From positions 1 to 64,000 of the IMG/VR virus record IMGVR_UViG_3300035181_000829: 64,000 nt of DNA; one strand, given 5' to 3'. Below are positions 3,808 through 62,240 of this stretch, piece by piece. Both the position numbers and the translations under genes were made by a program. The DNA is from a virus. Under the pieces are notes generated by a model. That model had not been told where the DNA came from. It searched no databases and was given only the letters and a program-made list of their open reading frames with translations. Position 1 is the stretch's first letter; the number at the start of each line of letters is the position of its first letter.

Positions 3808-3855
3808 TTTCTATTCCTTTTCATGTTATACAAGCGCGAGTATCCCCCGCGCTTG

Positions 3856-3865
3856 CAATCGATTG
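3856..3865. repeat. Dispersed palindrome CAATCGATTG (intergenic)
   Basis: Context is GCTTG-core-TAGCG. It lies between the stop of the gene ending at 3878 and the start of the gene at 3807, a position suited to an operator or roadblock. Confidence 0.9.
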
Positions 3866-3877
3866 TAGCGATGTGGC

Positions 3878-4103: not shown

Positions 4104-4847
4104 TCAGGCTCCCTTCGTGGCAATCGAGGCCGCTTCCAACGTGATGAGGACTTGCAGTGCCCCCTGCGCGATGGCAAGCGCATTCTGCTGCGCATCGGCA
4201 GTTCCCGGCTTCAAGCCAAGGATGACCGGCGAGGCCGTATTGATGGCTGCGGCGACCTTGCTGGCCGCGTTGTCAAGTGACACAACGACCTTGGGCTGTG
4301 CACACGCCGTCAACACTGTCGCCGAGCAAAAGGGCTGCGACGAATAGTCGGCTGCGGCCTTGACGTAGACCGCAAACTGCGACTTGATATTGTATAACGA
4401 TTGCGCCGGGGTCAGGTTGGCCGTTGCACCATCGGTATTGGTGATGGCACATGCCGCGATGATGGACAAGGCACACGCCGCTGCGACGGACCGCGCGGGT
4501 CGGAACAAGCTTGCAATCGATTGCAAGACCCGCTGCGCCACATTGCTATTACCAGACTGCGAACTTCCGGTGTCAGATTGGGAAGCGGTCGTTCCATCAC
4601 CGCCGCTGCCGGTCGTTGGCTTTCCGGGGGTCAGTCGCAACGGTTGCGTGGCCGACACGCGGCCCCAGATAACCAGCACCATGCCGATGCCTTGCAGGAT
4701 GCCATCGATTGCAGAATTAAGTTGGGAGGCGGAGTCAGCGGTGAAGCTGATGCCAAACTGCGGAAGGAACGTCGCCAGCAGGCCGACGATCAGTCCGATG
4801 ATGGTCTTGCTCTGCAAGAACCATTTGCTTTGAATTTCGCTGTCCAT
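4104..4847 (-). CDS. Holin-like protein fused to a lipoprotein-like domain
   Basis: Protein of 247 residues. Residues about 12-65 have two hydrophobic segments (TIIGLIVGLLATFLPQFGI and GILQGIGMVLVIWGRVSA) of the kind seen in phage holins. A Ser/Gly/Thr-rich linker follows and contains LQSIAS, encoded by a full 18-base copy of the dispersed palindrome at 4510-4527. Next comes a hydrophobic stretch with a lipobox-like end (ALSIIAAC), then a soluble domain with paired cysteines (QPFCSATVLTAC). It looks like a holin joined to an outer-membrane lipoprotein-like module, perhaps spanin-related. Two adjacent genes merged by loss of a stop is one explanation. Confidence 0.6.
   Translation of the reverse strand: MDSEIQSKWFLQSKTIIGLIVGLLATFLPQFGISFTADSASQLNSAIDGILQGIGMVLVIWGRVSATQPLRLTPGKPTTGSGGDGTTASQSDTGSSQSGNSNVAQRVLQSIASLFRPARSVAAACALSIIAACAITNTDGATANLTPAQSLYNIKSQFAVYVKAAADYSSQPFCSATVLTACAQPKVVVSLDNAASKVAAAINTASPVILGLKPGTADAQQNALAIAQGALQVLITLEAASIATKGA
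4510..4527. repeat. Longest perfect copy of the dispersed palindrome (18 bp, inside CDS)
   Basis: CTTGCAATCGATTGCAAG is a perfect 18-base inverted repeat within the holin-like gene. It defines the outer limits of the symmetric site. A degenerate copy (CATCGATTGCAG) lies at 4703-4714 in the same gene. Confidence 0.95.
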
Positions 4848-6662: not shown

Positions 6663-9600
6663 TTAAACGATTCCTTTCGCTGGGTGGCCTCGGCCAACCT
6701 TGTCCGATATTTGGTATACCATGATGTTTACGTGATTGCCCGGTGTCAGGCCGTCAGTCGTCTGGTCTGCCGCAGAGTATACGATAGTTTGGGCATCGTT
6801 GACAACAATGGTTCGCAGGACGGTCGCAAACGTGCCATCATACACATCGATTTCATAACGCTCGTAGGCTTCCGAGTTCGGAATGTCGATATAATCAGGC
6901 CACGCTATGCCGAATCTATCCCGACGAGTCCACACAATTGTCAGGTTGTTCGAGCCGTCGCGGGTGCCACCTAGGAAACATGGCGAATAAGGAAACAACC
7001 TCTGTGCCGTATTGGTGAAGGTTTCTGCTGCCACATCGGAAGTGTTGATGCCTATCGTAACAGCCTTGTAGGACATAGGACGATTACGGTTAGCAAGATC
7101 GTCGGTGAAGTTAACCAACGCGGCCTGTTGCAGCAGAACGAATTCTTCGTTGACAACGTGAGTATCAGTGCACTCCGATCTATCCGTTCCCGCGATGCCA
7201 CGGATGAATGCGCCGTTAAGCTGGAACTGGTTTCCGGTAAGGTGCGTTGCCGTGAGGAAGCTGACAAGCTCATTTCCAATGAGTGCAAGGTTTGAACCAC
7301 TAAGTAGTGCATCAGAGGTAACCGAAGTCAGCTCATTATCCGAGTTGTATAGTTGAACGACGATTGAACTGGTAATATCCGGCACCCTGCAATCGATTGC
7401 ACCGAGCAACGCACCGCTAACAACCTTACCCGCGACGATAGGCACGATGTTGGTCGAAATATCAACGTAGGTTGCACCGGAGTCGAGTGAACGGTAAAAC
7501 TCGGCGCCCTCCCAAGCCCCGTCTTCGGCTGCAAACCCAACATAGAAGCCCGCGTCGTTTTCGGTCGAGCGGATGGCGGGAATATCCATCAGGTATAGGA
7601 TAGTGTTTGCGAGTTTTATAGTGGCAGAGCCTACTGGCGAGATGTATTGCGAAGTGCCAGCGTTGCCGGTGATGCTGAGCACATTCAAGTCACCCGCGCG
7701 GCGCGGGGCCTTGTATAACGTGCCTTCGCATTGCAAGATGCCATCCGCACCACGGGTGACCGTGGTAAGCTTGACGATGGTTTCACTGTAAATCGGAAGC
7801 TTGTCGGTCTTGAGTGCCAAGTTCAAGATCGGGTTTTCGAAATACTGCCCGTTGTAAGAGGCTAGGACGGCAGCACAGTAAACTTGGCAGCGAACAAACC
7901 GTGTGCCAGCCGGAAGCTGGAAAGTCACCTTGCCTGTGGTGTAGGAAAGATTGGTGGTTCCAAGTATTATTTCAACAAAACCCGTGCCGTATGCGTCGAT
8001 GTAGCCATTAAAATCAGGAACGGTGTTTCCGTTCGCATCAAGGGTGCCTTTGAACGCATACAGCAGAACGCCGTGCGAACCTTCCCATACGAGATTGTAA
8101 CCACTATACTGTTGCTCACCGTCGATACAGAATTGCGCCACATGACCACCAGCCGCAATTTGATCATCCGTGAGGTAATTGCCGAGGTCAAAATCTTGGT
8201 AGAAGATACCACCAGACCAGTTACCGTTACCACCCGGAATGGCCTCTACACCTAAACCCCCCCACGTAGACATATAACCAACGTTGCCAGCGCCAAGCCA
8301 TACTCCGGGTGAGTATACATGCACAACGCCGTTGGAACCGTTAAGCAGGCCGGGGCGCGGATCGACACCACCACCGAACGGCGCTTGCAGAACTTCGATA
8401 TTCTGATCGTAATGCGTAGCCGAATTATCCCGCAGGGAGATAATGTCAGTGGGCGCAATCTGCACATACTTGTGCGGAAGCTTGAACTTCGCAGTATTCT
8501 TTTGCGTCCAAGCATCTTGCATACGCCGAACGACTGCATCCTTCATTATGCGGGGGTAGCTAACGACCGGGTATTCCGCAGTGGAGGTCTGTGTGCTCGG
8601 CGATTTCTTGACCGTGTTGCCCTTCTTGTTTATCCAAGTGTTAGGACCACTCTGGTCACGCACATATATCGCGTTGTTGATCTGGTAGTCGCGGCCCGGA
8701 TCGCTGTAGCTGATGCTCAACGAACGCGGGAGTTCCATAATGTCCGCGTAGCTATATTCGATCAGCGGGCTGGGCGATGACCCCGGCGTTTTCGCGTCAA
8801 GATCATCGGTGCTGATGATGTAATCGATTGCAGTGCGACGGCGGGGGCGGAAGACGATCTGATTCATAATATCGGCAGCATCAATATCGAACACATCGAG
8901 CATTGCCGTGATTGCGTCACGAATGCTTGTTTGCGTGCCGATGGTGTAGCCCGCGACAAAGGCATCGTCACCTGTAACCGGCAACGCGGTCAGATCGTAG
9001 TATTTCTCGTCAACTTCCCCAATATCCATGAGGTCTTCAATGATCCCCGCCGCCGTATCGTTTTCATAGCGAACGGTTTCAAACGTGAGGTTCGGGATGC
9101 GGTTGCCGAAGTTGGCAAGTTGCAGCGTATCAAACACGATATGCGCCCGGTCAATGTAGGCAGGCACGGGGCTGTTCAGTGCAACTTCCATCGCGGGATC
9201 GGAAATCTGATCTTCTGTGCCGCGATACAACGTCACGTTGTTGACCTGCGTCATTTGCAGAATCGATTGCTTCGACCAGTCCGCGAAAGCTGCAAACAGG
9301 TTGTAGTAAGAGTGCCACCCACGTTGACCAGTGCCGTCGCCGACGATACCACCTTCGCCGGTAATGCTGGCCTTAGACGGCACATATTTGAACGTGATTG
9401 GCGGGATAGTGACAGTGTGGATATTCGGGTAGACATACCAAATCTCTACCTGAATGCGCAGCCACCGAGCATACCGGGGGATTTGCAGTCCGTTGAGGAT
9501 TTTCTTGTCAACAGCCCCGCCGGTCGCCAGCACAGTCGTTGCCGATGTATCATGGAAAATCTGGAACGTGGTCCAGCTCTTACCTTCTTTCTGGTAGTCG

Positions 9601-10795: not shown

Positions 10796-11275
10796 TTAAA
10801 CGACGCCGCGAATTTTCCAGCAAGCGTGGATTCTTGGTATCAGGTAGGTAGGATCGATTGGCATCTCGATGACGCCGCGACGTTCTTGTGCATAAGAATG
10901 GATCATCGTTTCGCGGCCTTGGCTATCCTTGCCCGTATACACGACGATATGTCGGGGCACGCCGCGTTTTTCGATCCATAACGTGATCGCATCACCGGGC
11001 TGCAATCGATTGCAGAGGGCATCACCGGGCTGGTAATCGGTGCGGTCCATGTGATCGTAGCACAAGGTATCGAATGTCATGCTGTCAGGCATGTGCGAAT
11101 ACCCGGTAATCTTGGGGCCTTCGGTGAAGATACCTAGGCGGGTGCCGGATACGATAAGCAAGCCGATACAATCCATACGCTCAAGTGAACGGCCCATATG
11201 TTGAAACCGCGCCCCCTTGTGGGAACGCAATTCGGTGAGCCATTCCTGCCGGGTGACGGTCTTAGGCTTTTGCAT
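10796..11275 (-). CDS. NlpC/P60 tail peptidase (cell-wall hydrolase)
   Basis: Protein of 159 residues from ATG 11275, overlapping the DUF2163 gene by 14 bases. Catalytic Cys36 lies in RMDCIGLLI and His109 in VPRHIVVYTG; MIHSYAQ follows as the third element. It should cleave peptide stems of peptidoglycan during DNA entry, as GTA gp14-type proteins do. Residues 82-96 contain QPGDA twice, separated by LCNRL. This is a 10-residue in-frame insertion produced by a 14-base direct repeat flanking a dispersed palindrome. QPGD is normally present once in the family, so the insertion looks recent and tolerated. Confidence 0.85.
   Translation of the reverse strand: MQKPKTVTRQEWLTELRSHKGARFQHMGRSLERMDCIGLLIVSGTRLGIFTEGPKITGYSHMPDSMTFDTLCYDHMDRTDYQPGDALCNRLQPGDAITLWIEKRGVPRHIVVYTGKDSQGRETMIHSYAQERRGVIEMPIDPTYLIPRIHACWKIRGVV
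10989..11032. repeat. 14-bp direct repeats flanking a dispersed palindrome
   Basis: GCATCACCGGGCTG occurs at 10989-11002 and again at 11019-11032, with CAATCGATTG at 11003-11012 between them. The unit is exactly 30 bases, so the reading frame is kept. Confidence 0.9.
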
Positions 11276-12122: not shown

Positions 12123-13237
12123 TCAAAAACCTCGACCAGCACGATGCTGCTGAAATTGGCGACTGCGCTGTCACGCATACCAGCCGTGATTTCGGACGGC
12201 AGAACCGTCCCGTCCTTGAAGCGAACGGGAACATGGAAGTAGTAACCAGCGGTGATCAATGCGCCGACAGGTGGTAGCGTGGGCGTGAGTGTGATCGAAT
12301 GGGTTTCATCCACACCGCCCCATGCCGTTCCGTCATACTTCTGCAACGTGAGATAGTGGGCGGGTGAGATAGCGGCGATACGCAGCGGGGCACCCGACTG
12401 CGGCGCGTTGTTCGCCGTGTTGGCGAATCCTGTGATATAGACCAAATCACCGACATTGAAACCAGCGGTATTCGAGGTTATCAGGTTGTTGCCGGTCTTC
12501 GTAAACGTGTTCGTGGTCGCGGGACGACCAAGCGAAAAATCAATCTGGCATGTTGCCATATTGTAAGACCAGTTGAAAACTTGAAAGCCATCGACCGCGA
12601 GCACAAGCGTCGATACATCGGGATAACGGATGCGACGTTGTTTCTGGTAAGCGCCATAGGTATAGTATTTGTAAAGCGGGTAGGACGCCTGTGCACCGAC
12701 CGCGACGGCAATCTGTTGGTCTAGCATGGTCACATTGGTAAGCGACATGCCTGCATCACTTTCCGCGCTTGTGTTGTCCAGCGGGTCCATGAACAGGAAT
12801 GCGGCGAAGTCACCGGAGACAACGTGCCAGATGCGCATTACCTGCGCTATCTCGTTGGCTGGCAGGTTATCCATCTTGATATTGTATTCGTGCTTCGGGT
12901 ATTTCCACCGCTGTTGCCGCTGTTCGGCCCCGCTGTCCACTTCGGACTTGTAGGTCTCGTAAGTGGGCACCCCGGTCGAGCCGTATGTGATGCACTCTGG
13001 GAAAATCAGATCGGTGTAAACCATGTCGGTATCCTCGGTTCCTTCGGTCGCTGCAATCGATTGCCGACCGCCATTCGGCGCACGATCTGCACGAAACATT
13101 ACATCGATGCCAACGCCAAACACTTTGACAACATTACCGGCTATCATGCAATCTATGCCAACACCGTAAACCTTTTTGAACAAGGATGATTTGGTTAGAG
13201 CATCGATGCCAGTTCCGTATACTTTCGTATAGGTCAT
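12119..13237 (-). CDS. DUF2460 distal tail protein with N-terminal triple repeat
   Basis: Protein of 372 residues. The DUF2460 core starts near residue 80 (YTDLIFPECITYGSTGVPTY, then RWKYPKHEYNI and a FAAFLFMDPLDNT element). Family members form the distal tail ring. Ahead of the core are about 70 extra residues with three copies of KV(Y/F)GxGID (KVYGTGIDAL, KVYGVGIDCM, KVFGVGIDVM) and a linker with GGRQSIAATEG. The linker is encoded across the palindrome at 13054-13063. I do not know this repeat from other DUF2460 proteins. Confidence 0.8.
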   Translation of the reverse strand: MTYTKVYGTGIDALTKSSLFKKVYGVGIDCMIAGNVVKVFGVGIDVMFRADRAPNGGRQSIAATEGTEDTDMVYTDLIFPECITYGSTGVPTYETYKSEVDSGAEQRQQRWKYPKHEYNIKMDNLPANEIAQVMRIWHVVSGDFAAFLFMDPLDNTSAESDAGMSLTNVTMLDQQIAVAVGAQASYPLYKYYTYGAYQKQRRIRYPDVSTLVLAVDGFQVFNWSYNMATCQIDFSLGRPATTNTFTKTGNNLITSNTAGFNVGDLVYITGFANTANNAPQSGAPLRIAAISPAHYLTLQKYDGTAWGGVDETHSITLTPTLPPVGALITAGYYFHVPVRFKDGTVLPSEITAGMRDSAVANFSSIVLVEVFE

Positions 13238-14441: not shown

Positions 14442-14457
14442 GTTGTATCCTCGCTTG

Positions 14458-14467
14458 CAATCGATTG
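14458..14467. repeat. Dispersed palindrome CAATCGATTG (intergenic)
   Basis: Lies in the 29-base gap between the tape measure stop (14471) and the next start (14441), in the context CTTG-core-TAGTC. Confidence 0.9.
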
Positions 14468-14470
14468 TAG

Positions 14471-17400
14471 TCAGGTATTGCGCCGTGCTTTTTCAAGCGC
14501 AGCACCAAGTTGTTTCGCGTGTTGATCCGCCGAACGCCGGAAGGTATCAGCCGGGGCTTGGCCTCCGTTCACATGGTAGTGCACATTCAGATGGGTATCG
14601 CCGTGGTGGACACTGTTGTTATCGCCCCCGCGCACGTTGTTGTTCACCGCACCTTGACCCATCATAGCAGCAAAATCGGCGCTGCCAACCTGACCGCTTA
14701 CCTCGCCGCCCGCTGCGAATCCATTGAAGCTCTTGCCAGACATTAATCCAATAAGCTTCTGCGTATCGCCCGGTTTGATGGCTCCGCTGTTGATCGCTTT
14801 CAGCAATGGGCGGAAATTCTTCGTCGCCTCGCTATGCACAACGAACTCGCCGTTCGAAAGCCAAGCAGGGATACTGTCGCTCGTGCCATTACCAGCGCCA
14901 TACACATCGCCGCCGTCAGCGAAGCCAAGGAAGCTTTTGATGCCGCCGAGGATTGAATTGCCGATTCCACCGAAAATACCACCGAGCGTTCCGCCAGCAG
15001 CACCACCGCCACTACCACTTAGGCTAACCGGGTTAAAGGTAGCCGAACCGAGCGACTTACCACCGCTTGCTGCCTGAGTCGCGGCGTTCAGCCCAGCAAC
15101 GAACTGTGCACCAAACGTATTGATCGTCGTCACAAGCGAGGTTGAAAACTGCGTGAAGATCGACTTGAACTGATCAGCCGCTTCGGTCGCATTCTTGCTG
15201 AGCGCATCAAGTATGCCACCACCGCCCGCCGCAGCCCCAGCGGTAGAACCCGCTGCACCGGATGGGGCCGTAGTGTGGGTTAACCCGAGGGCTGACAGAA
15301 TACCACCTATAAGACCACTGCTACCTACAGATGGCGTGCCAGCGCTGCCCTGTTGTGACGGTTGCTGCGCATTGCCGAAGATCGAACCACCACCGCCGGT
15401 CAGGCTGGAAATGGATTGCTGGATCAGGCCCTTGGTGAAGCCCGCGAAAATCTGCTTGGAAATGTCCAGCATGGACTTCTTGAAGCTATCCCAAGCGTTC
15501 TTCGTGTCGAAGATGAAATCGCCGATACCTTTGGACAGAGTGTCGAGCACGCCGGTCGTGGCCGTCGATACAATGTCAGTAAGCGTGACAAGGCTCTTTT
15601 CGTATTCTGCAAAGCCTTTGTCGATCCCCGCTGCGACGATGGTCCAAGTATTCTTAGTATGGAACGCCAAATCGTCAAGATCACGCTCGAACAGCTTGAT
15701 GGCATCGTCACGACGCTTCATCGAGTTCTCAAACGATGCTACCGCTGCAAGGTCAGCGGCTTCGGCCTTCTGCAACGCAACGATGGTTGCCTGATAATCG
15801 CCCGCGATCTGGTCGGTCAGCTTTCCCTTGGCACCGATGGATTTCAGTTGCTCTTGCAGTTTGGCAATCTGACCTTCGTATTTGCTCTTTACCGCAGCCT
15901 CATCATAGTTGAAGTTGAAGTCGATGCGTTGATCGATGGTCAGCCCTCGGGTGCTGTCGTTCAACGTCTTTTGTGCATCAAGCAACGTTTTCTGCGCCGC
16001 CCGAAGTTCGTCGGCAATCTTATTGGCCGTATCAACGCCGCTGCTACCGCCTCGTGCGGGTCCACGGGCACCACCGGGTTTGAATGACGCGGAGACAGTG
16101 GCTACAGCTTTCTGACCGGAGAGCACACCGTTGGTAACGACCTGTTCGATCTGTGCGAGCAAGTTTTTAGATACATCATCGAGAAACTTGACCATCTCAG
16201 GCGAAAGGCTCAACGCCTTTGCGGAGGCGTTCACAAGATCGACAACAACTTGCTGGTATTTCGCAAACTGCGAGGCGGTGAATGCCTGCACATCGGCGGG
16301 GGACGCATTCGGATTCTGAGCGAGGTAGTTCTTGATTGCGTCAATCGCGGGCTTGCCTTCAATAAGGTCAACAAGGCCCGGAATGTTGGCGGGGTCAAAT
16401 GCGAGGCCAGCCTTGTCAAATGCAGCCTGTGCTGCGGCGGCATACCCGGCGTAGTCATCGGTTCCGATAGCGTCAAAGATCGCCTGATACTGTTTGGTGG
16501 ACTTATCTGCAACAGCTTGGGCATCTTGCAACGTAGTTAGATTAGTGCCTGCCGCTGCGGCTTGCAGTGACGTGGCTAGGCTCTTGGACGTTTCCGACAG
16601 GAGCTTTTCGTAATTGATCCGCGTTTTCAGGTTTTCAGCATCAAGCACAGCACGAGCCGTATCGATGCCCGCATCAATTACCTTCGTGGTTTGCTTGGCC
16701 GTATAGCTCGCAATTATTTGACCGGCCTGCGATTCCGAAACGTTGCTGTCAGTGCTTAGGATGGTGCGAAGAATGTCATCGAGGTTTATGGCCCCTTTGG
16801 TATCCTTGAGCTTATTGACAATATCCGTGATCACCTGCTTGTTTTGCAGGAGCTTCGCAAAGTCAATCGATTTGAACTGGTCCGGCAGGGTGGTATCCCC
16901 GCTTGCAATCGATTGTAGGAACTTCGTAAGGCCGACCGCGCGATGTTCCTGCGCACCATGAAGAACCGAAAGCGTCCGGTCTAGTAGTTCATTTTCGCTA
17001 GCTGTCTGCTGCGTATACTCAATAACAGACTTGGCGATTTCGGTGCCGTAGTTGTCCACAAGCCAACTGCTGAGGTAGCTCTGCATATTCTGCGCGTAAG
17101 GCTGCTTTTCCTGTATGTATTTCGCAACCTGATTGCTGGCTGCAATAATGCTGGCCCGATCTTTCTCGTTAACGCTCGCGAGGTTCTTGCTGAAATCATC
17201 CTGTGAAGCCTTTATAGCGTCGGAAATGGTGCCAAGTTGTTTTGCAGCGTCATCTATTGATGCCTGCGTATTCTGCACATACATAAGAGGTTGGCTGTAA
17301 AGCGTAGTGTCTGCAAGGCCACTATCATACCGTTGTTGGTCCAGTTGCAGGTTAGCCGATATGTTCCCCGCATCCTTCTGCGAGAATGCACTTCCTTGCG

Positions 17401-20111: not shown

Positions 20112-20423
20112 CTATGGGTATGCTTTGGTTGCCGTAAGTTTTCTTACTCTTGACCCCCGAGGCATATGTTTGACCATTCCATCCGCCGCGTCCCGTGTGA
20201 GCTTGACCGCGACAGTGTAGAACATTTCTACACCCTTCTCGTCGTAAAGTCCAGTGAACTTTTCCACGAGGTAGACCGTGATTTCAAACGCTTGTCCAGA
20301 TGCCATTGGTGGGATACTCATGCCAGTGTCCAACACGATGAACGGGCAGTTCGAGAGTTGGAGCTTCCTCGGGTCAATTCCACCGAAATCATGGTTATCT
20401 CCGCTTGCAATCGATTGTAGCAA
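20112..20423 (-). CDS. Small putative tail/neck protein, start uncertain
   Basis: About 103 residues if started at TTG 20423; no in-frame ATG exists until residue 35. The body (DPRKLQLSNCPFIVLDTGMSIPPMASGQ, ITVYLVEKFTGLYDEKGVEMFYTVAVKLTRDAADG) is coherent and lies between the tail tube and chaperone genes. The first codons run across the palindrome (LQSIASGD), and a terminator lies just upstream. It may therefore be started at TTG, or translated only at low level. Confidence 0.55.
   Translation of the reverse strand: MLQSIASGDNHDFGGIDPRKLQLSNCPFIVLDTGMSIPPMASGQAFEITVYLVEKFTGLYDEKGVEMFYTVAVKLTRDAADGMVKHMPRGSRVRKLTATKAYP
20408..20417. repeat. Dispersed palindrome CAATCGATTG next to terminator
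   Basis: CTTG-core-TAGC sits directly downstream of the tail-tube terminator hairpin and at the beginning of the next reading frame. Confidence 0.9.
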
Positions 20424-23846: not shown

Positions 23847-23860
23847 GACATTCCCCGCTG

Positions 23861-23870
23861 CAATCGATTG
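23861..23870. repeat. Dispersed palindrome CAATCGATTG (intergenic)
   Basis: Lies 15 bases upstream of the connector start and abuts the hairpin at 23876-23893. Confidence 0.9.
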
Positions 23871-23875
23871 TAAGA

Positions 23876-27325: not shown

Positions 27326-29129
27326 CGATGACCTCCGAATCACTTGCAATCGATTGCAGCCGCTTTGCTTCAATCTGTTCAGCCATCTTTAGCATAGCGG
27401 CTTCGCTCAGTCTACGCAACATTTTCGTAACCGGGGAAACACCATCTTCTTCCGAGCCGGGAGGCGTGACCTCTGTCTCTTGCGGCATCACATCGGTTAG
27501 TTGCTGCACAATATCGGTAAGGCCGGGGACTTGACCGCCCGCCATGATTGCCGTCATACTGCTTTGGAACGGCACGTCGCCCCATTCTTCCTCGATGGGC
27601 TGAATGTCCGCGTCAAGATAACGGTTGGCAATCTTGATAGCGATGTTCGGGGTAATGGCCCCTTCCGCGCCAAGGGTGGCAACAAGGCGGGAGACTTCGG
27701 CAGGGTCCGACAGGCCGGGGCCTGCCGACCGCAAACGCCAGAAGCGGAAGTTGTGGCTTGCCAACACAAGCTGATCGAACATTTCATCCCATGCAATACG
27801 TTCGGGAATGAAAATCTGCTGGTCAGCGGTCAGCATTGATGCGAAGGCCGATGCGCGGTTATACTCGGATGCGCTGCCAATGTAGATCGGCGGAAGTCGG
27901 AAGGATGACCGGCCCTTGCGTTCTGCATCGCCGACATAGTTTTGAAACAGTCCCTCATGTTGGCGTTCAGACAGCATCGGCTTAATGTCAACCTTGGGGG
28001 CTGGCAGTGATCCATCGATTGCAGCGGCATCGGCACCCTCGGAAGTCGCTTCGAGCACCACGATCCTGTTCATGGAGGCTTGCCCGCGCACGCCAAGGAT
28101 ATATTGCTCAATCTTGTCGTAGCTTTCTTCGGTAAGCGCGCCCCCGGAGACGAGCACGGCCATTGCCGGGATTGCGTTGTCGCGGAAGAAGCCAAGGTTG
28201 ACCATTTCTGCTTCCCGCGCACCGAGAAGGGCCGGGATTGCGCCCGCCCAGCGTGGAACGCCAACCGGAATGCCGGGAGAGTAGTGTCCATCGTAGAAAA
28301 TGGACGTGGCTTCTTCCTCAATGGTCAGGTCTTCGTTGACTACTCCGCTGGTGGGATCAATGATGCGAGGGTCGCCAAATTCCTTGAACCATGTGCGCCG
28401 CCCGTATTCATCGATCTGTATGAAGCGACGGAAACGCCGGGTGAACGTCACCTTTTGACGAAGCACCGGGTCGAACATGGTTACCTCGGTCGCTTCGCGG
28501 TCCTTCATGGTCATCCGCATCGTGATCATGGGAACGTGCTCGAAGCTGACTACACGGCCAGCCGCATCCTCGATTACTTCAAAGCAACGTGCGCCGAGCA
28601 CTTCCTTGTCGATGCGGCTTTCCTCACGGTGTTTTCGCAGGGTGCGGCCATCTGTCGTGATGGTTCCGAGTAGCCGCATGATGCGCTGGCGTTCGTTCTG
28701 TGCCGCGCGGCCCATCTCTTGTCCATCCGGCCCGCAGTATTCGAGACGCAGGCCGTAGCTCTCGATGTTGGTCACATAGGAATCGACACATTGGCGCAGA
28801 ATGGTCGAAGCGTTGTAAATCTTGATCAGGTCACGGTAAGGGAACAGTGGAACAACGATCCGCATGGCATTGGACCGGAACACGTCGATACCTAGCGAGT
28901 TGCCGTCAACGTTGTCGTAACCGAGAAGGTTGAAGTCATCATGGAAAAGGCCGTAGATGCCTTTCTTCATGTTTTCCATGCTGGTGAGGCCGGAAAGGGC
29001 GGAAGTATAGCCCACCTCGGACTGGCCGGGGATTCCGCCTTCAACAATCCCCGTGCCGCTTTTCTTGCTGTTTGCCGCCGCTTTGGTAGTGGAAGGCGTA
29101 TTGATTTTGCGGACAAGCCTGCGCGCCAT
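27318..29129 (-). CDS. Portal protein, PBSX/HK97-like
   Basis: Protein of 603 residues from ATG 29129 with AAAAGGAG upstream. It shows LIKIYNASTILRQCVDSYVTNIE, the LRKHREESRIDKEVLGARCFEVIED motif and VPRWAGAIPALLGAREAEMVN, all typical of PBSX-family portals. It forms the dodecameric DNA gate at the head vertex. The palindrome at 27347-27356 is read as RLQSIASDSE at the extreme C-terminus, where an added tail is easily tolerated. A degenerate copy sits at about 28011-28022. Confidence 0.9.
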   Translation of the reverse strand: MARRLVRKINTPSTTKAAANSKKSGTGIVEGGIPGQSEVGYTSALSGLTSMENMKKGIYGLFHDDFNLLGYDNVDGNSLGIDVFRSNAMRIVVPLFPYRDLIKIYNASTILRQCVDSYVTNIESYGLRLEYCGPDGQEMGRAAQNERQRIMRLLGTITTDGRTLRKHREESRIDKEVLGARCFEVIEDAAGRVVSFEHVPMITMRMTMKDREATEVTMFDPVLRQKVTFTRRFRRFIQIDEYGRRTWFKEFGDPRIIDPTSGVVNEDLTIEEEATSIFYDGHYSPGIPVGVPRWAGAIPALLGAREAEMVNLGFFRDNAIPAMAVLVSGGALTEESYDKIEQYILGVRGQASMNRIVVLEATSEGADAAAIDGSLPAPKVDIKPMLSERQHEGLFQNYVGDAERKGRSSFRLPPIYIGSASEYNRASAFASMLTADQQIFIPERIAWDEMFDQLVLASHNFRFWRLRSAGPGLSDPAEVSRLVATLGAEGAITPNIAIKIANRYLDADIQPIEEEWGDVPFQSSMTAIMAGGQVPGLTDIVQQLTDVMPQETEVTPPGSEEDGVSPVTKMLRRLSEAAMLKMAEQIEAKRLQSIASDSEVIDG

Positions 29130-29191
29130 ATCTGCTAACTCCTTTTGGATTAGCAGCAACTATACTCCACAACTTTTTTTGGCACAAGCTA

Positions 29192-29201
29192 CAATCGATT
29201 G
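29192..29201. repeat. Dispersed palindrome CAATCGATTG (intergenic)
   Basis: GCTA-core-CAGGC lies between the stop at 29206 and the portal start at 29129, about 60 bases upstream of the portal ATG. Confidence 0.9.
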
Positions 29202-29205
29202 CAGG

Positions 29206-29694: not shown

Positions 29695-30116
29695 TACTTC
29701 CTTAGCGAATGCCAATCGGCGAAGCGGTTATCCCAGATCAGCCGTGCATCAGGATCGGGGTTGAGAAGTCCATCGCGGATTTCCTCGAACAACATCTGGC
29801 AGCGGGCATTGGCTGACTCGAAATCCCCGGCGTTCCACTGGTAACCGTGATTCAGCGGCTCCAACAGGCGTCCGCGCAGAGTGGTTACGGCAACGGCTGT
29901 GTCATTGATGGCGCCCTGTGTGTAATTGCTGTTGAATTTGGGGTCCAGCGCCCACACGGTCATTTCGTGTGTATCGCCTTTGAAGTAGACGGGGGCCGGT
30001 GGCACACCCGGAACGTCACGAAGTTCAACAAGAAAAATGGCATACCAAGACCAGAACGGGTTCGCTGCAATCGATTGCACGACCCAAGTGCCGCTTTGAA
30101 GTGGCGTATCATCCAT
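29694..30116 (-). CDS. Unknown head-module protein
   Basis: Protein of 140 residues from ATG 30116 (MDDTPLQSGTWVVQSIAANP). The palindrome at 30068-30077 is read in frame (QSIAAN) near the N-terminus. Aromatic-rich strands (FWSWYAIFLVELRDVPG, HEMTVWALDPKF) suggest a beta fold. No family is recognised. Confidence 0.6.
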   Translation of the reverse strand: MDDTPLQSGTWVVQSIAANPFWSWYAIFLVELRDVPGVPPAPVYFKGDTHEMTVWALDPKFNSNYTQGAINDTAVAVTTLRGRLLEPLNHGYQWNAGDFESANARCQMLFEEIRDGLLNPDPDARLIWDNRFADWHSLRK

Positions 30117-31061: not shown

Positions 31062-31524
31062 AGTCCTCTCCGACAACGAGTTTAAGCATGGACGTGATGT
31101 TGGGGCGCTCTGTAACGTGGTGCCCCGTGCCTGCCGCGAGGTCAATCGCGGTTACGGTATACCAGTGGCAAAACTCTGGATCGAGTTTCTTGAAGTTGTC
31201 CCGAAGAAACTTGGCTAGGCCATCGAAAGCGCCGTCCGACATGATGACGTAAGCCGGGTATTTCTCGTAGAGGATCGAGGCTAAAACATAGAGTTCTGTG
31301 GCCTGCTTGAAGCATCCGTCCATGAACTCCCACGAATGCTTGGACTCTGCTTTCGCTACAATCGATTGCAAGCGCGCGAGCATGTTCGCATGAAACAGAT
31401 CGAAGTATTCCTCGGCGTTTTCTTGCGAACCTTTTCCGGCTTCAAGAATCTTCCCCATACGAACGATAGGATCGACCGGCTTCGGTCGCTTCTTAACGAC
31501 GATAATTCTACGTTTGATTGGCAA
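30955..31524 (-). CDS. Unknown protein with ligase Ia-like segment
   Basis: Protein of 189 residues if started at TTG 31524 (MPIKRRIIVVKKRPK); the nearest ATG is at 31458. TTG is favoured because neighbours share the same basic N-terminus, although no good ribosome site is seen. ASILYEKYPAYVIMSDGAFDGLAKFL resembles the Y-x-P-x-(I/V)-S-D-x-x-(Y/F)-D-x-L pattern of the N-terminal (Ia) domain of NAD-dependent DNA ligases, without the rest of a ligase. The palindrome at 31359 is read as RLQSIVAK. Confidence 0.6.
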   Translation of the reverse strand: MPIKRRIIVVKKRPKPVDPIVRMGKILEAGKGSQENAEEYFDLFHANMLARLQSIVAKAESKHSWEFMDGCFKQATELYVLASILYEKYPAYVIMSDGAFDGLAKFLRDNFKKLDPEFCHWYTVTAIDLAAGTGHHVTERPNITSMLKLVVGEDYGQHTPKVSRKLIRRKRPSAKTAGRRMRIVRSPRG

Positions 31525-31584: not shown

Positions 31585-33681
31585 TTAAGCGCGTCTTACT
31601 GGCAGTCGTGAGACAGATTTACGTTCAGATACGCTACGACGACCCCGGCGACGTATTAGGTAGTCCAAGTCATCGGCAGTTAGATTTTCTAGTTTCACAT
31701 TGCCAATACTAGTTCTGTTACCGTGTAGCATAAGCCCACGATCACCCTTGTATTTCGGTTGAGTGGTCCACGTAGCGCGGCGCGTAAGCAGGTAAGAGGC
31801 TACGCCACACACGGCATCGGCAATATCCTTCGAGCCGCGCGGCTTGTGGTCGATCTTTTCCTTTGATCCGTTCCGAACATACTCAAGTTCGGTCAGTTCC
31901 TTAATCAAGTGCTGGTTCCGCAGAAGCATAACTCGTTCTTCATACAGTGCATCGCGAAACGTCTTGTAAGGTTGCGTCGTCCTGTCAAGGGACAGATATT
32001 CCGTAGCAAAACCTTTAGCGGCGAGTGTCTGCCGGAAATCTACCGACTGAAAGCCATCTGTCGTTACCACCTTGATTGGCAGTTGGTGTTCATCCCGCAG
32101 CCGATAAATGATTTCACGTATTTTGCTAAACTCGATTTCACCGTCACGCGGCGGCAGCACACGGAGAATCAAGTCGTAGCCAATGACAGGCAAAACTTCT
32201 ACCGTGCTTATGCCGCTGTCGGGATGCTTACGCTCAATAGTCCTCATACCTGCAATGTGGCCGATAGCTATGCCCGCGCTGTCTCTGGTAACGGCAAGGT
32301 CAACGTGGCATACACGCATCGTCTTAATGTCACGACGCACCCTGCTATCATCGATTGTAGGAATCGATATTTCAAGGTCGATATACTCATTGTCAATGAC
32401 AGACTGATAGCCATACTGGTCTGCCAACGTCATACACGAGAATAGGCTTTCACGGTTTTGGATGAACGGGTGAGTAGCTAGGGTAGTGATGCCCGCGAAG
32501 TCTCGAACGCAACCATCAATGTCCTTCTCAAATTCGCTGCGGAAATCTTCTGGCACCGAAATAACCGTGCTGCTTTCCAACATGGACGCAGGGATGACTT
32601 CATTGTCATGCAGTATGCGCGACCGCATCCGTTCATCGCCGACTAACACTCGGAACGATTTGTCCATATACTTGTCCCGCCCCTTCGAATCCCAGAGGGA
32701 TCGAGAGAACACGTAAATCTCTGGATCGTCGCCACCATACATGGCAGCTTCCTTAGCCTTTTCTTCTGTGAAGTCGTCGGGGTAGCGGGACGATGACACA
32801 AGGAACAGTGTGCCGGGCAACTTACCTTTGTGCATGAAGCGTGAGCGGCGGCGTTTCGACAATGTGAGGTATAGTGCCTTGGCTTGGTCATACTCGCCCT
32901 TTTCATCCGCGCTGCTGTTCTTAGACTTAATCACTTTCTGCATGAAGTTTACTTCGTCAAGCAGGCCACCGATCACGTTCATGGAGATAGCGCCAGTATC
33001 CGCCGATGATACGGGCATGATGGTGATATTGTGCTCATGGAACAGCATCTTTGATGTGATGCGGTGATCATAAGGGAAAATCTCGCGAAAGAACGGGCTT
33101 GAGTTCAAGAACTTGCCAAATTCTTCGAACACCGCATTCTTTGCAGTAGAAAGACGCACAGACTGAATGGTGAACACGATGGAGGAATGCTGTTGAATGC
33201 CGAAGGTCTGTTGCGGATTCCGCATACATGACAGCTTGTAAATCTGTCGAGCCATGCCAAGGTTAGCGATGGTAGTCTTACCGCCGCCGATGGCACCTTT
33301 CAGGATGGCTTCGACATATTTCTCTGTATCGATTTCACGCAAGGCTTCAATTACGCCGGGATAGATTTCGCGCTCATCAAGACCAAAGTAGGTGTCACCG
33401 AAAAGGAACTCGTCAAGCGGAACGACACCGCGACGATAACGGGTAAGCTCCAATATATGCTCAAGGTCGCCGTCCTTGGCGACCTCGGTGAGTGCGAATT
33501 GGAATTGATCCCGTAGTAGTTTATCGGGTAGCGAATTTACCTCGCTTGCAATCGCTTGTAGCGTATCCCGAAGCGCAATTTCCCGCGTAAGGTCTTCGTC
33601 GGGTATGGAAGCCGCCCGAATAAGCTTAGGCTTTTTTCGGACGATAATTTTGCGCGATGGCTTGACAAGTTTGCTAACCAC
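31585..33681 (-). CDS. terL: Terminase large subunit
   Basis: Protein of 698 residues starting at GTG 33681, overlapping the small terminase stop. Walker A is GAIGGGKTT at about residues 129-137, and Walker B is IGGLLDEVNF with Asp-Glu at about 242-243. The nuclease half shows HVDLAVTRDSAGIAIG, VVTTDGFQS and KDIADAVCGVA, placing the acidic metal ligands. It packages DNA into proheads and cuts it. It carries the basic N-terminal stretch RKIIVRKKPK. A one-mismatch palindrome at 33549 reads LQAIAS. Confidence 0.93.
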   Translation of the reverse strand: MVSKLVKPSRKIIVRKKPKLIRAASIPDEDLTREIALRDTLQAIASEVNSLPDKLLRDQFQFALTEVAKDGDLEHILELTRYRRGVVPLDEFLFGDTYFGLDEREIYPGVIEALREIDTEKYVEAILKGAIGGGKTTIANLGMARQIYKLSCMRNPQQTFGIQQHSSIVFTIQSVRLSTAKNAVFEEFGKFLNSSPFFREIFPYDHRITSKMLFHEHNITIMPVSSADTGAISMNVIGGLLDEVNFMQKVIKSKNSSADEKGEYDQAKALYLTLSKRRRSRFMHKGKLPGTLFLVSSSRYPDDFTEEKAKEAAMYGGDDPEIYVFSRSLWDSKGRDKYMDKSFRVLVGDERMRSRILHDNEVIPASMLESSTVISVPEDFRSEFEKDIDGCVRDFAGITTLATHPFIQNRESLFSCMTLADQYGYQSVIDNEYIDLEISIPTIDDSRVRRDIKTMRVCHVDLAVTRDSAGIAIGHIAGMRTIERKHPDSGISTVEVLPVIGYDLILRVLPPRDGEIEFSKIREIIYRLRDEHQLPIKVVTTDGFQSVDFRQTLAAKGFATEYLSLDRTTQPYKTFRDALYEERVMLLRNQHLIKELTELEYVRNGSKEKIDHKPRGSKDIADAVCGVASYLLTRRATWTTQPKYKGDRGLMLHGNRTSIGNVKLENLTADDLDYLIRRRGRRSVSERKSVSRLPVRRA

Positions 33682-34308: not shown

Positions 34309-35175
34309 TTACTTCGTCTTGCTACGGCTTACCGTGCGTTTCTTCGCGGTGACGGTAGGGGCGGCGGGTTTCTTCGCATTTGCCGACGCTACAATCGATT
34401 GCAAGTCGGCGGCGGCGACCATCGCTTCCATGATCTTGGTGTATGGAACGTCTGCCGCGTCCGCCATCTTGATCACTTCTTTCAGCTTCACATTGGTCGC
34501 TTCATCAATCTGGAAATAGTGGTGCTCTTTACCGCCGAACGAGAACACCATGTATCCACGGTCGAGCTGACTTCCGCTTTCCTTGAAGATGCGGTTCAGC
34601 ACAGATGACAGGTCGTCAACCGACTTGATCGTTTCCTTCGCCTCGTCCAACTTCTTGCGCTGCGCGGGCGTCATGTTGGCCTTTGCCGATTCGATCAAAA
34701 CCTCGAAACGTTTGGAGTCATGGAAGCCCATCTCGCGCTGCACCGTCTTGGGGTCACTGCCTTTTACAAGCTGACTATACAGCTTGACCAGTTTTGCCTT
34801 GTCGGTCACGTCGCCGCGAAGAACGTTCCGCTTGGTCAACGCGAGCTTCTTTTCACGGTCGGTCCAGTTCTTTAGGATAACCGGAACCTCGTGGTATCCG
34901 AGAACCTTCGCCGCTTTCAAGCGGTGGTGCCCGGAACCGATTTCATACCAGCCTTTCTTGCCGGGGGCTTCGCGAGCGAGGATCGGTTCATCGAACCCTT
35001 GCTCGCGGATTTCTTCCACAAGCGCGTCAAACACTGTTTCCGACATGACGTTGGGGTTGTCCTCGTCGGGGATCAACCTATCAACCGAAATGTAGACAAT
35101 ATTCGGCTTCGTTTTGTCATCTGTTGCCTCCTGCACGGGGGCGGGCGTAATGGCAGCGCGCTTACGGATGGGCAT
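34309..35175 (-). CDS. ParB/Srx-domain protein
   Basis: Protein of 288 residues. Residues about 27-105 form a ParB/sulfiredoxin-like domain (VDRLIPDEDNPNVMSETVFDALVEEI, YEIGSGHHRLKAAKVLGYHEVPVIL); GHHRLKAAK occupies the nucleotide-binding GxxRxxA position. The C-terminal half has a helical region and a strongly basic end (KKRTVSRSKTK). The family includes CTP-binding DNA partition proteins and phage nucleases. Because it sits beside the terminase in a genome full of a short palindrome, it is one candidate reader of that site. The palindrome itself occurs in its own gene (34392, DLQSIVASA). Confidence 0.8.
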   Translation of the reverse strand: MPIRKRAAITPAPVQEATDDKTKPNIVYISVDRLIPDEDNPNVMSETVFDALVEEIREQGFDEPILAREAPGKKGWYEIGSGHHRLKAAKVLGYHEVPVILKNWTDREKKLALTKRNVLRGDVTDKAKLVKLYSQLVKGSDPKTVQREMGFHDSKRFEVLIESAKANMTPAQRKKLDEAKETIKSVDDLSSVLNRIFKESGSQLDRGYMVFSFGGKEHHYFQIDEATNVKLKEVIKMADAADVPYTKIMEAMVAAADLQSIVASANAKKPAAPTVTAKKRTVSRSKTK

Positions 35176-38065: not shown

Positions 38066-39015
38066 ATCACGATTCCTTTGTCTTTGAGAAGGTAATCTTG
38101 CCGTTCGAGAAATTTGGAACTGGTTGGCACTTTTGGTAATACACGACCTATGTGTTCCTCCACAAAGTTAACTAATATAGCAATTACGGCAATATAAGAA
38201 TCGGTGAAGTTACCACCTTCAACGAGATACTGATGAATGTAGCAATCGATTGCAAGAAGTGTGGTTATCACTGCAACTCGGTAGGCGTCATCCACCTCTT
38301 GCAAAAAGTTAAGCCTAATAGTGCCCATATCGCACACAAGCGGCTTTTCGTCAGCGAGAAATCCGTGATTTACGTTCTGCTCAACAAGAGTGACGATATT
38401 TTCTTGAGTAAGCCCTCGGGAATGGCGAAGGAATAGCCCAACCCCTACGTCAATGGCGGTGCGCGGGTTACAAATTCCAGCAGTCTGATAGAATTTGTCT
38501 GCCCTATCACTTCGCATGTTAAGTGATGCCATATGCAAGAGGGCACCGTATACCTGTTTCCAATATTTAGATATTTGGCTGGACGGCCTATCGTAATCGC
38601 CATTTGTTACTGCAACCATCTGCGCAAGTTGCAAGAGTATAAGGTCAGAATAAGACTGCCTACGCATGAAAAGCTCAACGTAGGCTTTGTGCCGAATGGC
38701 TGGGTTAGGGTTTGCCGCAGTGTCTACACCGCCGCTCCACACTGACTGTCGGTGTAATGCGAAGTCAAAGATTTTTTCGTGATGGGTTATAGCGACAAGC
38801 AATGGCTGTTCATACTTTTCAGAATCGCTGGCCTCTATATTCACAAGAACGGATTCAACATCTTCGTGTGTCCACCCGCTATTCGTCATCCACTCTACAA
38901 ATTTTGCAGTCTTATCCGGCGCAACAGCAAGCTGTTCTGCCATCCTCTTTATGAGTTCTTCGCGCCGCAATTGCCTAGCCGCAAAGGTGGTGCCGGTTAC
39001 GTTGATATTTCTCAT
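38062..39015 (-). CDS. Unknown 317-residue helical protein
   Basis: ATG start, overlapping both neighbours by four bases. It is almost entirely helical (RREELIKRMAEQLAVAPDKTAKFVEWM, YVELFMRRQSYSDLILLQLAQMVAV). The palindrome at 38243-38252 is read as LAIDCYI, a different frame from the usual LQSI. No family is recognised. Confidence 0.6.
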   Translation of the reverse strand: MRNINVTGTTFAARQLRREELIKRMAEQLAVAPDKTAKFVEWMTNSGWTHEDVESVLVNIEASDSEKYEQPLLVAITHHEKIFDFALHRQSVWSGGVDTAANPNPAIRHKAYVELFMRRQSYSDLILLQLAQMVAVTNGDYDRPSSQISKYWKQVYGALLHMASLNMRSDRADKFYQTAGICNPRTAIDVGVGLFLRHSRGLTQENIVTLVEQNVNHGFLADEKPLVCDMGTIRLNFLQEVDDAYRVAVITTLLAIDCYIHQYLVEGGNFTDSYIAVIAILVNFVEEHIGRVLPKVPTSSKFLERQDYLLKDKGIVI

Positions 39016-39416
39016 ATGAATTTGCCTACTTGCTTGCAGAGCCGAAGATAGCAGCCGAGGACAGCACGCCAGTAAATGTCATCGCAGCTTACCTGCATAG
39101 TGACGGGACGCAGGTATCCGTAATCAGGCTCCACGTCATAATTCGTGTAAGTCATTGTGACCCGAAAAGTAGGGTGTGCTTTATTCAACTGCAATGTGCT
39201 GGTTTGGCAATCGGCGCGTGTAGATATACGGGTAGCAAATTCGTATGCGCCTTTGTTCGGCTTTTCGCCTACGCACTCCGCAATGCGCATGACCGTGGCG
39301 GCTTCTGCGCCTTCCTCGGTTTGCTGCAATCGATTGTAAAGGTCGTCAACGAGTGCGGTGAACTTGGCTTGCGCAAGTTTCTTGACGGGCACTCGGACGA
39401 TGATTTTCCGAGACAT
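39012..39416 (-). CDS. Unknown protein with basic N-terminus
   Basis: Protein of 134 residues starting MSRKIIVRVPVKK, like several neighbours. The palindrome at 39327-39336 falls within LYNRLQQTEE. The C-terminal part is cysteine-containing and beta-rich (FRVTMTYTNYDVEPDYGYLRPVTMQ). No family recognised. Confidence 0.55.
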   Translation of the reverse strand: MSRKIIVRVPVKKLAQAKFTALVDDLYNRLQQTEEGAEAATVMRIAECVGEKPNKGAYEFATRISTRADCQTSTLQLNKAHPTFRVTMTYTNYDVEPDYGYLRPVTMQVSCDDIYWRAVLGCYLRLCKQVGKFI

Positions 39417-41065: not shown

Positions 41066-41252
41066 GACGTTCCCTTTCGCTTGCAATCGATTGTATTACG
41101 CGGGTTAACGTAGCGTAGTCCTGTTCCAGAGTGATGATATTGATGGTTTTCCCCGCGCGCAGGACCAAGGTCGGTGTAAACCCGGCTGGGGCGTTGGCGA
41201 TAAGGGCAAGCGCCGCAGCGCGGTCATTTTCGCTTAGCAATAGCGTCGGCAT
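41037..41252 (-). CDS. Small unknown protein
   Basis: 71 residues from ATG 41252 (MPTLLLSENDRAAALALIAN). The palindrome at 41084-41093 lies in frame near the C-terminus (RVIQSIASER). Unassigned. Confidence 0.45.
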   Translation of the reverse strand: MPTLLLSENDRAAALALIANAPAGFTPTLVLRAGKTINIITLEQDYATLTRVIQSIASERERHARHTGGSG

Positions 41253-45744: not shown

Positions 45745-45772
45745 AAAAGCCCCACATCTTTCAATGTGAGGC
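45745..45772 (-). terminator. Intrinsic terminator
   Basis: GCCTCACAT and ATGTGGGGC pair (with one G-T) around TGAAAG and are followed by TTTTC on the minus strand. It lies 7 bases past the stop of the gene at 45779. Confidence 0.85.
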
Positions 45773-45778
45773 GATTCT

Positions 45779-46090: not shown

Positions 46091-46103
46091 TTGTTTGCTC
46101 CGT

Positions 46104-46170: not shown

Positions 46171-46171
46171 A

Positions 46172-46707: not shown

Positions 46708-46717
46708 GGTCTTTGTT

Positions 46718-50215: not shown

Positions 50216-50460
50216 GACTTCTTCATCATTGACTTCATCTAATACATTAACTACCCTTCATCATCATTTCCTTTATTATCAATGACTTAGCCTACTAATC
50301 TACATTGCCATCACGCAAAACTTGGGGGACTGTTTAGCTGTGTTTAGCTATACTTAATCATATTATTACTATATATACTATCTATTAGTTTTTAGTAGTT
50401 TAGACCCGCGATGGAAGTTCTAGGCCCGCGATTCTTCTAGAGAACCCGCGATTATGCTTA

Positions 50461-50470
50461 CAATCGATTG
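50461..50470. repeat. Dispersed palindrome CAATCGATTG (intergenic)
   Basis: CTTA-core-TAGCG; the only perfect copy between 41.1 and 52.3 kb, in the AT-rich gene-free region. Confidence 0.9.
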
Positions 50471-50675
50471 TAGCGAAGTTTACACTATGCGTAGTGAACG
50501 CAAAAGAGATGTTATAGAACAAAGAAAGCAATGACTTAAAAAATAAGTCGTTATATGCACAATGACTTTATCTTGGATTTTATTATAGTGGGGCTACCTA
50601 TAGCCTGTCTATCGGTTTACCCCGCGTTTGTCGCCATAGGCTGCGTTGTATCCCATTTCAGTATTATCAAATGGA

Positions 50676-52288: not shown

Positions 52289-52360
52289 TCTGGTTTGCTC
52301 CGTTTGCTTGCGCGGTTACGTTCCGCGTATATGTAGGGTAAACCCGTTACTTCTTCGTTG

Positions 52361-52408
52361 CAATCGATTGTAGCATATCAAGAAGGCGATTGTAGCATAT
52401 CAAGAAGG
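52361..52408. repeat. Dispersed palindrome with 22-bp tandem duplication
   Basis: The perfect core at 52361-52370 overlaps a 22-base unit (CGATTGTAGCATATCAAGAAGG) that is repeated exactly at 52365-52386 and 52387-52408. The second copy carries only the right half-site and overlaps the stop of the upstream gene. Confidence 0.92.
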
Positions 52409-56115: not shown

Positions 56116-56146
56116 TGTGGCTCCATTGGGTTGGGGTTATGCCGTG

Positions 56147-56156
56147 CAATCGATTG
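56147..56156. repeat. Dispersed palindrome CAATCGATTG (intergenic)
   Basis: Lies 32 bases upstream of the exported-protein start. The remaining gap to 56331 holds no gene. Confidence 0.9.
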
Positions 56157-56331
56157 TAAGCCCGCTACTAGGATAACGCAAGACGATTGGAGGATACTGG
56201 AAGTAAGGGTGGAATAGACGGGTTTTCCGTTCTTGGAACGTCGTTGTAGGGGCTATTTTAGGCGATTTTAAGGCCAATGTCGGTGGTGCCCGCTAGGGTG
56301 GTAGCTTGAGAGACGGGAAACCAGTGTATGA

Positions 56332-57821: not shown

Positions 57822-57854
57822 GCTACGCTGTAGGCATAGCGTAGCAATCGATTG
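57822..57854 (-). promoter_or_regulatory. Palindrome-hairpin-SD leader
   Basis: The core CAATCGATTG at 57845-57854 is followed on the minus strand by GCTACGCT-ATGCCTAC-AGCGTAGC (57822-57845) and then AACGGAGC before the start at 57799. It is the clearest example of the cassette layout outside 45-52 kb. Confidence 0.75.
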
Positions 57855-57876
57855 CAAGGGGCACAAGCTGATTATA

Positions 57877-60509: not shown

Positions 60510-60536
60510 GCTAGGCTCCGTTGGGTAGTTGCTATG

Positions 60537-60546
60537 CAATCGATTG
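60537..60546. repeat. Dispersed palindrome CAATCGATTG (intergenic)
   Basis: TATG-core-TAGGG, 28 bases upstream of the start at 60509. Confidence 0.9.
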
Positions 60547-60583
60547 TAGGGGATTGCCAACTACGGCGCTATAATAAAGCGCG

Positions 60584-61413: not shown

Positions 61414-61743
61414 CGTTTAGCCCCGCGTGTTTGCTACTCGCATATATTAGCACGGAAGCACTATCGATGCAATCGATTGTAACGTTACTATTTACGCGGT
61501 TTACTGCCTAAAAGTTTCATTAGCAATTCGCTTTTCTCCGCGCGATGAACAGGTGTCACCTTCTTATGCTAAACTGGCCTTGGAGGAACCAAACAAAGCG
61601 AGTATCAACATTGATAACATCTTGCTATCCATTATCAGTTTCTTCCGCGTTTACTACATCATGAGTTATCAAAATTCATTAACTATCCATCTTCTACGCT
61701 TTTTGGCACATCGTCATTGGTTACAAAAAACCATTAACTAATA
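61414..61743 (-). promoter_or_regulatory. Leader region of 61.4-61.7 kb
   Basis: No gene is seen. A palindrome at 61470-61479 is doubled on its left by a second ATCGAT (CTATCGATGCAATCGATTG). Variant dodecamers GGATAGTTAATG (61677-61688) and TTAGTTAATG (61732) lie near its right end, matching the leader layout seen at 45-50 kb. Confidence 0.5.
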
Positions 61744-62190: not shown

Positions 62191-62212
62191 GGATGATGTG
62201 TGCCGCGCGCTG

Positions 62213-62222
62213 CAATCGATTG
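62213..62222. repeat. Dispersed palindrome CAATCGATTG (intergenic)
   Basis: GCTG-core-TAACG, 23 bases upstream of the start at 62190 and flanked by GCGCG on both sides. Confidence 0.9.
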
Positions 62223-62240
62223 TAACGCGCGGCACGCTCC

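Follow-up and report, generated by a model that had tools for sequence, protein, structure and literature searches.

The stretch of DNA analyzed here, called the window, covers positions 1-64000 in a virus record of 90,231 bp. Its minus-strand NlpC/P60-like gene (Table 1) contains two exact 14-bp copies of GCATCACCGGGCTG, both in frame and 30 bp apart from start to start. The copies flank TGCAATCGATTGCA, a perfect 14-bp palindrome, the first two bases of which are overlapped by the first repeat (10989-11002). The gene product reads Y81-QPGDAL-C-NRL-QPGDA-ITLW. An earlier sequence-only reading had described this segment as a palindrome embedded in an in-frame 30-bp duplication, and the repeat itself was confirmed.

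The encoded protein gave no Pfam match at 0.001. It was assigned to the NlpC/P60 family via homologues annotated as dipeptide cell wall hydrolase or NlpC-P60, and it shared 32% identity over 94% with the 'dipeptide cell wall hydrolase' of RcTiptonus, RcKickapoo, RcMenchie and RcDurkin. A test for the catalytic Cys and His of such peptidases found C36 and H109 invariant in 14 homologues. The order of the genes around it was the same as in RcTiptonus. The protein match with the RcTiptonus group and the shared gene order place the window phage as a distant relative of the Rhodobacter phage cluster RcF. The members of this cluster are 94-kb siphophages that package DNA by a P1-type headful mechanism and have given no sign of lysogeny (PMC8601537).

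Exact 14-bp repeats lying within 60 bp of each other were found at 14 places in the real genome, versus 1 in 20 order-2 shuffles. This indicated that local duplication is an ordinary event here.

Table 1. Features of the window (coordinates are those of the window)
Feature	Position	Strand	Remarks
Dispersed site, exact 10-bp core	3854..3867		
Dispersed site, exact core	4512..4525		
Dispersed site, exact core	7388..7401		
NlpC/P60-like tail-module peptidase gene, 159 aa	10796..11275	-	Cys36 (MDC) and His109 (PRHIVVY) invariant in alignment
14-bp repeat, second coding copy	10989..11002	-	codons Q92-P93-G94-D95-A96
Palindrome TGCAATCGATTGCA	11001..11014		codons C88 N89 R90 L91 and start of Q92; perfect dispersed site, displaced position
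14-bp repeat, first coding copy	11019..11032	-	codons Q82-P83-G84-D85-A86
TAC|CAG (Y81-Q82), putative lost ancestral site	11030..11035	-	homologues here: TAC-AATCGATTG-CA
Dispersed site, exact core	13052..13065		
Dispersed site, exact core	14456..14469		
Dispersed site, exact core	16904..16917		
Dispersed site, exact core	20406..20419		
Dispersed site, exact core	23859..23872		
Dispersed site in portal gene	27345..27358		exactly orthologous to RcTiptonus site at 18993
Dispersed site, exact core	29190..29203		
Dispersed site, exact core	30066..30079		
Dispersed site, exact core	31357..31370		
Terminase, orthologue of RcTiptonus gp25	31585..33681	-	downstream of ParB-like gene
Orphan ParB/Noc-like protein, 288 aa, candidate site reader	34309..35175	-	ParB_N, helix-turn-helix region, C-terminal beta-beta-alpha element
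Dispersed site inside ParB-like gene	34390..34403		
Dispersed site, exact core	38241..38254		
Dispersed site, exact core	39325..39338		
Dispersed site, exact core	41082..41095		
Dispersed site, exact core	50459..50472		
Dispersed site, exact core	52359..52372		22-bp tandem duplication adjoining
Dispersed site, exact core	56145..56158		
Dispersed site, exact core	57843..57856		
Dispersed site, exact core	60535..60548		
Dispersed site, exact core	61468..61481		
Dispersed site, exact core	62211..62224		
Dispersed site, exact core	63552..63565		

The palindrome was present in the same gene in six homologous lineages (RcTiptonus/RcDurkin, L008/L009, L010, L089, L092 and L093). Three of the six (L089, L092 and L093) were found with the palindrome pattern. 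The others were retrieved with protein queries, independently of the palindrome, the L loci among them via a neighboring tail protein. In the homologues the palindrome occupies one constant codon position, 21 bp upstream of where it lies in the window, without the repeat and at equal spacing to PGD; the gene of the RcTiptonus group, for example, holds TACAATCGATTGCA there, read as Y-N-R-L. All 14 bases of the palindrome were identical across the six lineages, while its flanks were on average 36% and 54% identical. At this old position the window reads TAC|CAGCC, versus TAC-AATCGATTG-CAGCC in RcTiptonus, L010 and L089. In outgroup homologues, from phages without dispersed palindromes, the segment is absent; these proteins are shorter in this region, with one (P)GD.

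The doubled QPGDA was specific to the window lineage. The homologues were checked for a double QPGDA, and none other than that of the window had one. On the other hand, the claim that the duplication added ten residues was contradicted by two results. The number of residues from the Tyr to PGD was identical in the six palindrome-bearing lineages, and the best alignment with the RcTiptonus protein was ungapped over 149 residues. The comparison with relatives that had been proposed did yield homologues without the repeat. They were all of about 30-48% identity, and the order of events at this locus rests on them; no close allele of the window NlpC gene was found in the viral collection by peptide patterns or by a palindrome plus QPGD pattern.

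Because the homologues carry the same palindrome 21 bp upstream, unduplicated and with the same spacing to PGD, the sequences indicate that an ancestral site was relocated by 21 bp in the window lineage, and that it was neither newly gained nor accompanied by ten added residues. The idea of a site gained together with a duplication stood in one part: the duplication is real, and the place where the palindrome now lies goes along with it. It failed in the other, since the relatives already hold a site in this gene.

The two 30-bp halves in the window, aligned with a 9-bp gap, matched at 18 of 21 positions. In the simplest history that can be written, the interval between the site and QPGD would have collapsed, the 30-bp unit would then have been duplicated in tandem, and the upstream copy would have lost its 9-bp core, AATCGATTG. 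The outcome would be one site at the original spacing. The start and end states are those seen in the sequences, and we infer the three steps as one route that fits between them.

The palindrome was not confined to this gene. A symmetric weight matrix found 67 sites in the 90-kb genome of the window phage, compared with 2.75 expected, and 55 in RcTiptonus, compared with 2.5 expected; we refer to the former as a set of about 65. The spacing was more regular than random, with a coefficient of variation of the gaps of 0.63 in the window phage and 0.52 in RcTiptonus, against about 0.98 for positions drawn at random. Intergenic positions accounted for 26 of 55 sites in RcTiptonus and 23 of 37 in the Agrobacterium phage JP1, where about 6-7% was expected. 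The remainder were inside genes.

For 16 of the 45 mapped RcTiptonus sites, the window phage had a site no more than 30 bp from the orthologous position (about 2 expected), and only five were exact. In gp73 (primase) and gp84, the palindrome occurs in the same neighborhood in the two phages but is read in different frames, as VQSIA against ATIDY in gp73 and as YNRL against IIDC in gp84. The frame differs and the palindrome stays, which indicated that the DNA, and not the protein, is what is kept. The protein sequence yields to the DNA site: in orthologous genes the palindrome stays nearby, in another frame or shifted.

Several other repeats were seen in the window. A 22-bp tandem duplication, CGATTGTAGCATATCAAGAAGG (52359-52408), has its start within a dispersed palindrome, half of which it copies. 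A unit of roughly 90 bp occurs three times, imperfectly, at 49922-50160, and every copy has CTATCGATTGTAAG at its end, forming a half-perfect site at 49983, 50073 and 50160. A family of short repeats with the motifs CATTAACTACCC and CTTCATCTTC occupies 45601-50273 and 61674-61697 in many copies. At 53777-54285, neighboring stretches 323 bp apart are 73-80% identical, probably through an internal duplication of a gene.

How the NlpC segment arose can be read in other ways. The 14-16-14 bp layout at 10989-11032 resembles an insertion with target duplication, and the second QPGDA is private to the window. The sequence-only reading had accordingly seen in it the footprint of a copying or insertion process; in its full form, a 16-bp palindromic element would have inserted with a 14-bp target duplication, and the sites would have spread genome-wide in this manner. 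We consider this very unlikely. An empty site lacking the palindrome was not found in the relatives, since all the site-bearing ones already have it in the NlpC gene, without the repeat and at equal spacing to PGD. Target duplications were likewise not seen at other copies: a flanking direct repeat of at least 10 bp was present at 1 of 122 sites in the window genome and RcTiptonus, namely the NlpC site, and shorter flanking repeats occurred in numbers near those at random positions. This suggested that duplication is not the usual origin of the sites, which elsewhere stay at the orthologous position or shift from it with no duplication. The duplication might instead be a consequence of the palindrome, if replication slippage or repair repeatedly made small tandem duplications beside sites. 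The second site with an adjoining tandem duplication, at 52359-52372, is consistent with this. However, 2 of the 14 local duplications touched a site, compared with roughly 0.5 expected by a rough estimate, and flanking repeats at the sites were not generally in excess; slippage at the sites is thus possible but unlikely as the explanation. That the protein (residues NRLQ) and chance together account for the palindrome is hardly credible. The site does lie within a coding region and reads in frame, but its 14 bases are identical across homologues in which the surrounding protein is 30-48% identical, elsewhere it is read in the other frames given above, and about half of the sites are intergenic. 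A relocated member of a maintained set of sites is the reading that we carry forward.

Related phages shared the layout TGCAA-N4-TTGCA with lineage-specific centers (TCGA, ACGT, TCAA, TTAA and CATA). The center was ACGT or ACAT in JP1, TCAA/TTGA in the Stenotrophomonas phage DLP5, TTAA or TCAA in RcZahn, and CATA and variants in the Rhizobium phage RHph_TM16. These four phages had 9-33 exact copies each, compared with no more than 0.4 expected. Other arm spacings gave no comparable signal, except those following from the same sequence. Some relatives with a ParB-like gene (see below) had other palindromes in the 5-4-5 layout, namely TGATA-ACGT-TATCA (L116), TGACA-TTAA-TGTCA (L118) and GGAAA-TCGA-TTTCC (L123). 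Counting L141, dispersed 5-4-5 palindromes beside a ParB-like gene were seen with the arms TGATA, TGACA, GGAAA and AGAAA. No published report of these sites was found in the open-access papers searched.

The variants of the site were biased with respect to the sense strand. In the window phage, TACAA..TTGCA occurred 18 times and TGCAA..TTGTA 3 times. ACAT occurred 9 times and ATGT 0 times in JP1, and TCAA 17-20 times and TTGA 8-9 times in DLP5. In the window record, L004, L094 and L095, the biased variants were all G-to-A on the sense strand.

Among the proteins common to these phages, the ParB/Noc-like protein (Table 1) was the only obvious sequence-specific DNA-binding one. Its ParB_N domain matched PF02195 over the cut-off (E=3.5e-10). 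A profile of the family searched against the PDB gave Noc as the best solved relative (1.3e-17), over ParB_N and the following helices, and the match ran past ParB_N to Noc residue 150-174. Helices were predicted after ParB_N at 125-136, 141-147 and 153-165, forming the helix-turn-helix. The predicted structure had a mean pLDDT of 80. Foldseek matched it in the PDB to Noc, KorB (8qa9 and 8qa8) and ParB, with 190-235 alignment columns to Noc and KorB. The global TM-scores to Noc/KorB were low (0.26-0.40), which we attribute to a different arrangement of the domains. The nucleotide motif reads GHHRxxAA here and GEHR in some relatives, and the strict GERRxR is absent; from this sequence, CTP binding by the protein is uncertain.

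A six-frame search found a single ParB_N match per phage, except in RcZahn, whose copy is divergent and did not pass the cut-off. No Pfam AAA_31 match over the cut-off, as would mark a ParA, was found in seven phages. A clustered centromere was also not seen, the sites being spread genome-wide and more evenly than random. A ParB-like search of genome contigs found only two contigs, both metagenome-assembled, and thus gave no evidence for a chromosomal family. A column-wise search of the ParB-like alignment for specificity residues returned many correlated positions, which may simply follow phylogeny, and was set aside. A LacI-type reader encoded by the phage was rejected, as no PF00356 match was found in six phage genomes.

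The association of the protein with the sites was examined in both directions. Viral contigs searched with the ParB-like alignment gave 42 loci (697 kb) containing 97 exact TGCAA-N4-TTGCA, compared with 0.6 expected. Control loci fetched by the tail protein (1.1 Mb) contained only 4 exact sites, all in family members. In the reverse test, 19 records were chosen only for having at least one TGCAATCGATTGCA. The ParB-like protein was present in 10 of the 11 records with at least five sites and in 0 of the 8 with one or two (Fisher P about 1e-4). The exception, G002 (the record of L174, 104,952 bp), has 28 dispersed sites, and no ParB-like gene was detected in it by the family profile or PF02195. 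Conversely, L113, L114 and L117 have a ParB-like gene 43-44% identical to that of the window, but no set of sites is visible in their roughly 20 kb. In four records with the same TGCAATCGATTGCA site (G001, G003, G009 and G016, the records of L185, L207, L216 and L214), two neighboring ParB_N genes were seen, of about 240-295 and 510-530 aa.

One host strain, Rhodobacter capsulatus YW1, was used to isolate both RcTiptonus and RcZahn (PMC8601537). Their sites differ in the center, which makes a host protein unlikely as the reader, and the reader is probably phage-encoded. The link between the ParB-like protein and the sites is a correlation within related phages, so that another co-inherited protein could be the reader.

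Two readings dispense with the ParB-like protein. The sites might be read by a host regulator such as one of the LacI/GalR type, whose operators resemble TGNAANCGNTTNCA. The TCGA and ACGT forms resemble LacI-family operators, and the phages themselves have no LacI-type domain. Against this, the centers TCAA, TTAA and CATA are unlike a LacI operator, two phages of one host strain differ in center, and the presence of the sites tracks the phage-encoded ParB-like genes; a host regulator is therefore highly improbable. The sites might also act in RNA as small hairpins, such as boxB-like antitermination or processing signals. The arms and the four-base loop could make a short hairpin, and the strand-biased forms of the window phage and JP1 would fit a function in the transcript. 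However, the bases flanking the arms showed no consistent pairing above shuffles, the TACAA...TTGCA form favored on the sense strand gives an A-C mismatch in the RNA stem, and 5-bp A+U-rich stems are weak. The prospect of an RNA function is equally slim.

We consider it fairly probable, from the combined analysis, that about 65 sites are maintained genome-wide, that the NlpC site was displaced by 21 bp within this set, and that the sites most likely load the phage's own ParB/Noc-like protein. By analogy with ParB, Noc and KorB, which load at palindromes and then slide or spread (PMC12704722, PMC7383237, PMC11790492), the orphan protein, whose gene lies directly upstream of the terminase gene, would bind to the palindrome as a dimer. 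The dimer would then slide or spread as a clamp and so cover the genome. Our preferred guess is that this coverage serves genome organization or marking for packaging, and the neighborhood of the terminase favors packaging or genome marking. Protection and long-range control of transcription may also be named. The lack of a ParA match and of a clustered centromere argues against classical partition. DLP5 has been reported to lysogenize as a phagemid (PMC7326821), which leaves room for a role in maintenance.

A broader proposal, on which we are evenly divided, is that a widespread family of large tailed phages uses an orphan ParB/Noc-like clamp, encoded next to the terminase, together with tens of evenly spaced, lineage-specific loading sites, some of them within genes, to coat or mark the whole genome, and that the specificities of protein and site co-evolve. 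If true, this would be a phage counterpart of the genome-wide loading of the Noc/KorB type, with measurable turnover of sites. The set of sites would be a natural record of protein-DNA co-evolution, with the same arms, changing centers and a few lineages with changed arms. It would also place a ParB-type protein outside chromosome segregation, and the role of many orphan ParB-like proteins of phages would become testable in RcTiptonus, RcZahn, JP1 and DLP5. The duplication alone is a small local accident. Its value is in suggesting selection that keeps a binding site nearby, even inside a gene: where the exact place was lost, the site reappeared 21 bp away.

Dispersed sites are known from other systems. 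HIP1 of cyanobacteria is an abundant dispersed palindrome that also occurs inside genes; it is chromosomal and far denser than the sites here, and we know of no ParB-type protein linked with it. The stoperators of cluster A mycobacteriophages are a single short binding site repeated many times along the phage genome. They lack symmetry and are recognized by the immunity repressor, whereas the sites here are palindromic and the candidate reader is of the ParB type. The ParABS systems of phage-plasmids (P1, N15 and actinobacteriophages) resemble the present one in having a ParB_N protein on a phage; here, in contrast, no ParA passed the AAA_31 cut-off, and the sites are dispersed and do not form a clustered centromere. 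KorB of the plasmid RK2 is a clamp of the ParB fold whose several operators are scattered over a single mobile replicon (PMC11790492), but these number about a dozen, compared with tens of sites per genome here, half of them inside genes. The Noc/NBS system of Bacillus shares with these phages a ParB-type DNA-binding protein that lacks a ParA partner and has palindromic sites of 14 bp spread across a replicon, and Noc is the closest solved structure. The system here differs from it in being phage-encoded, with a site every 1.3-2.4 kb and a site sequence that varies by lineage, and in having the nucleotide motif GHHR or GEHR where Noc has GERR.
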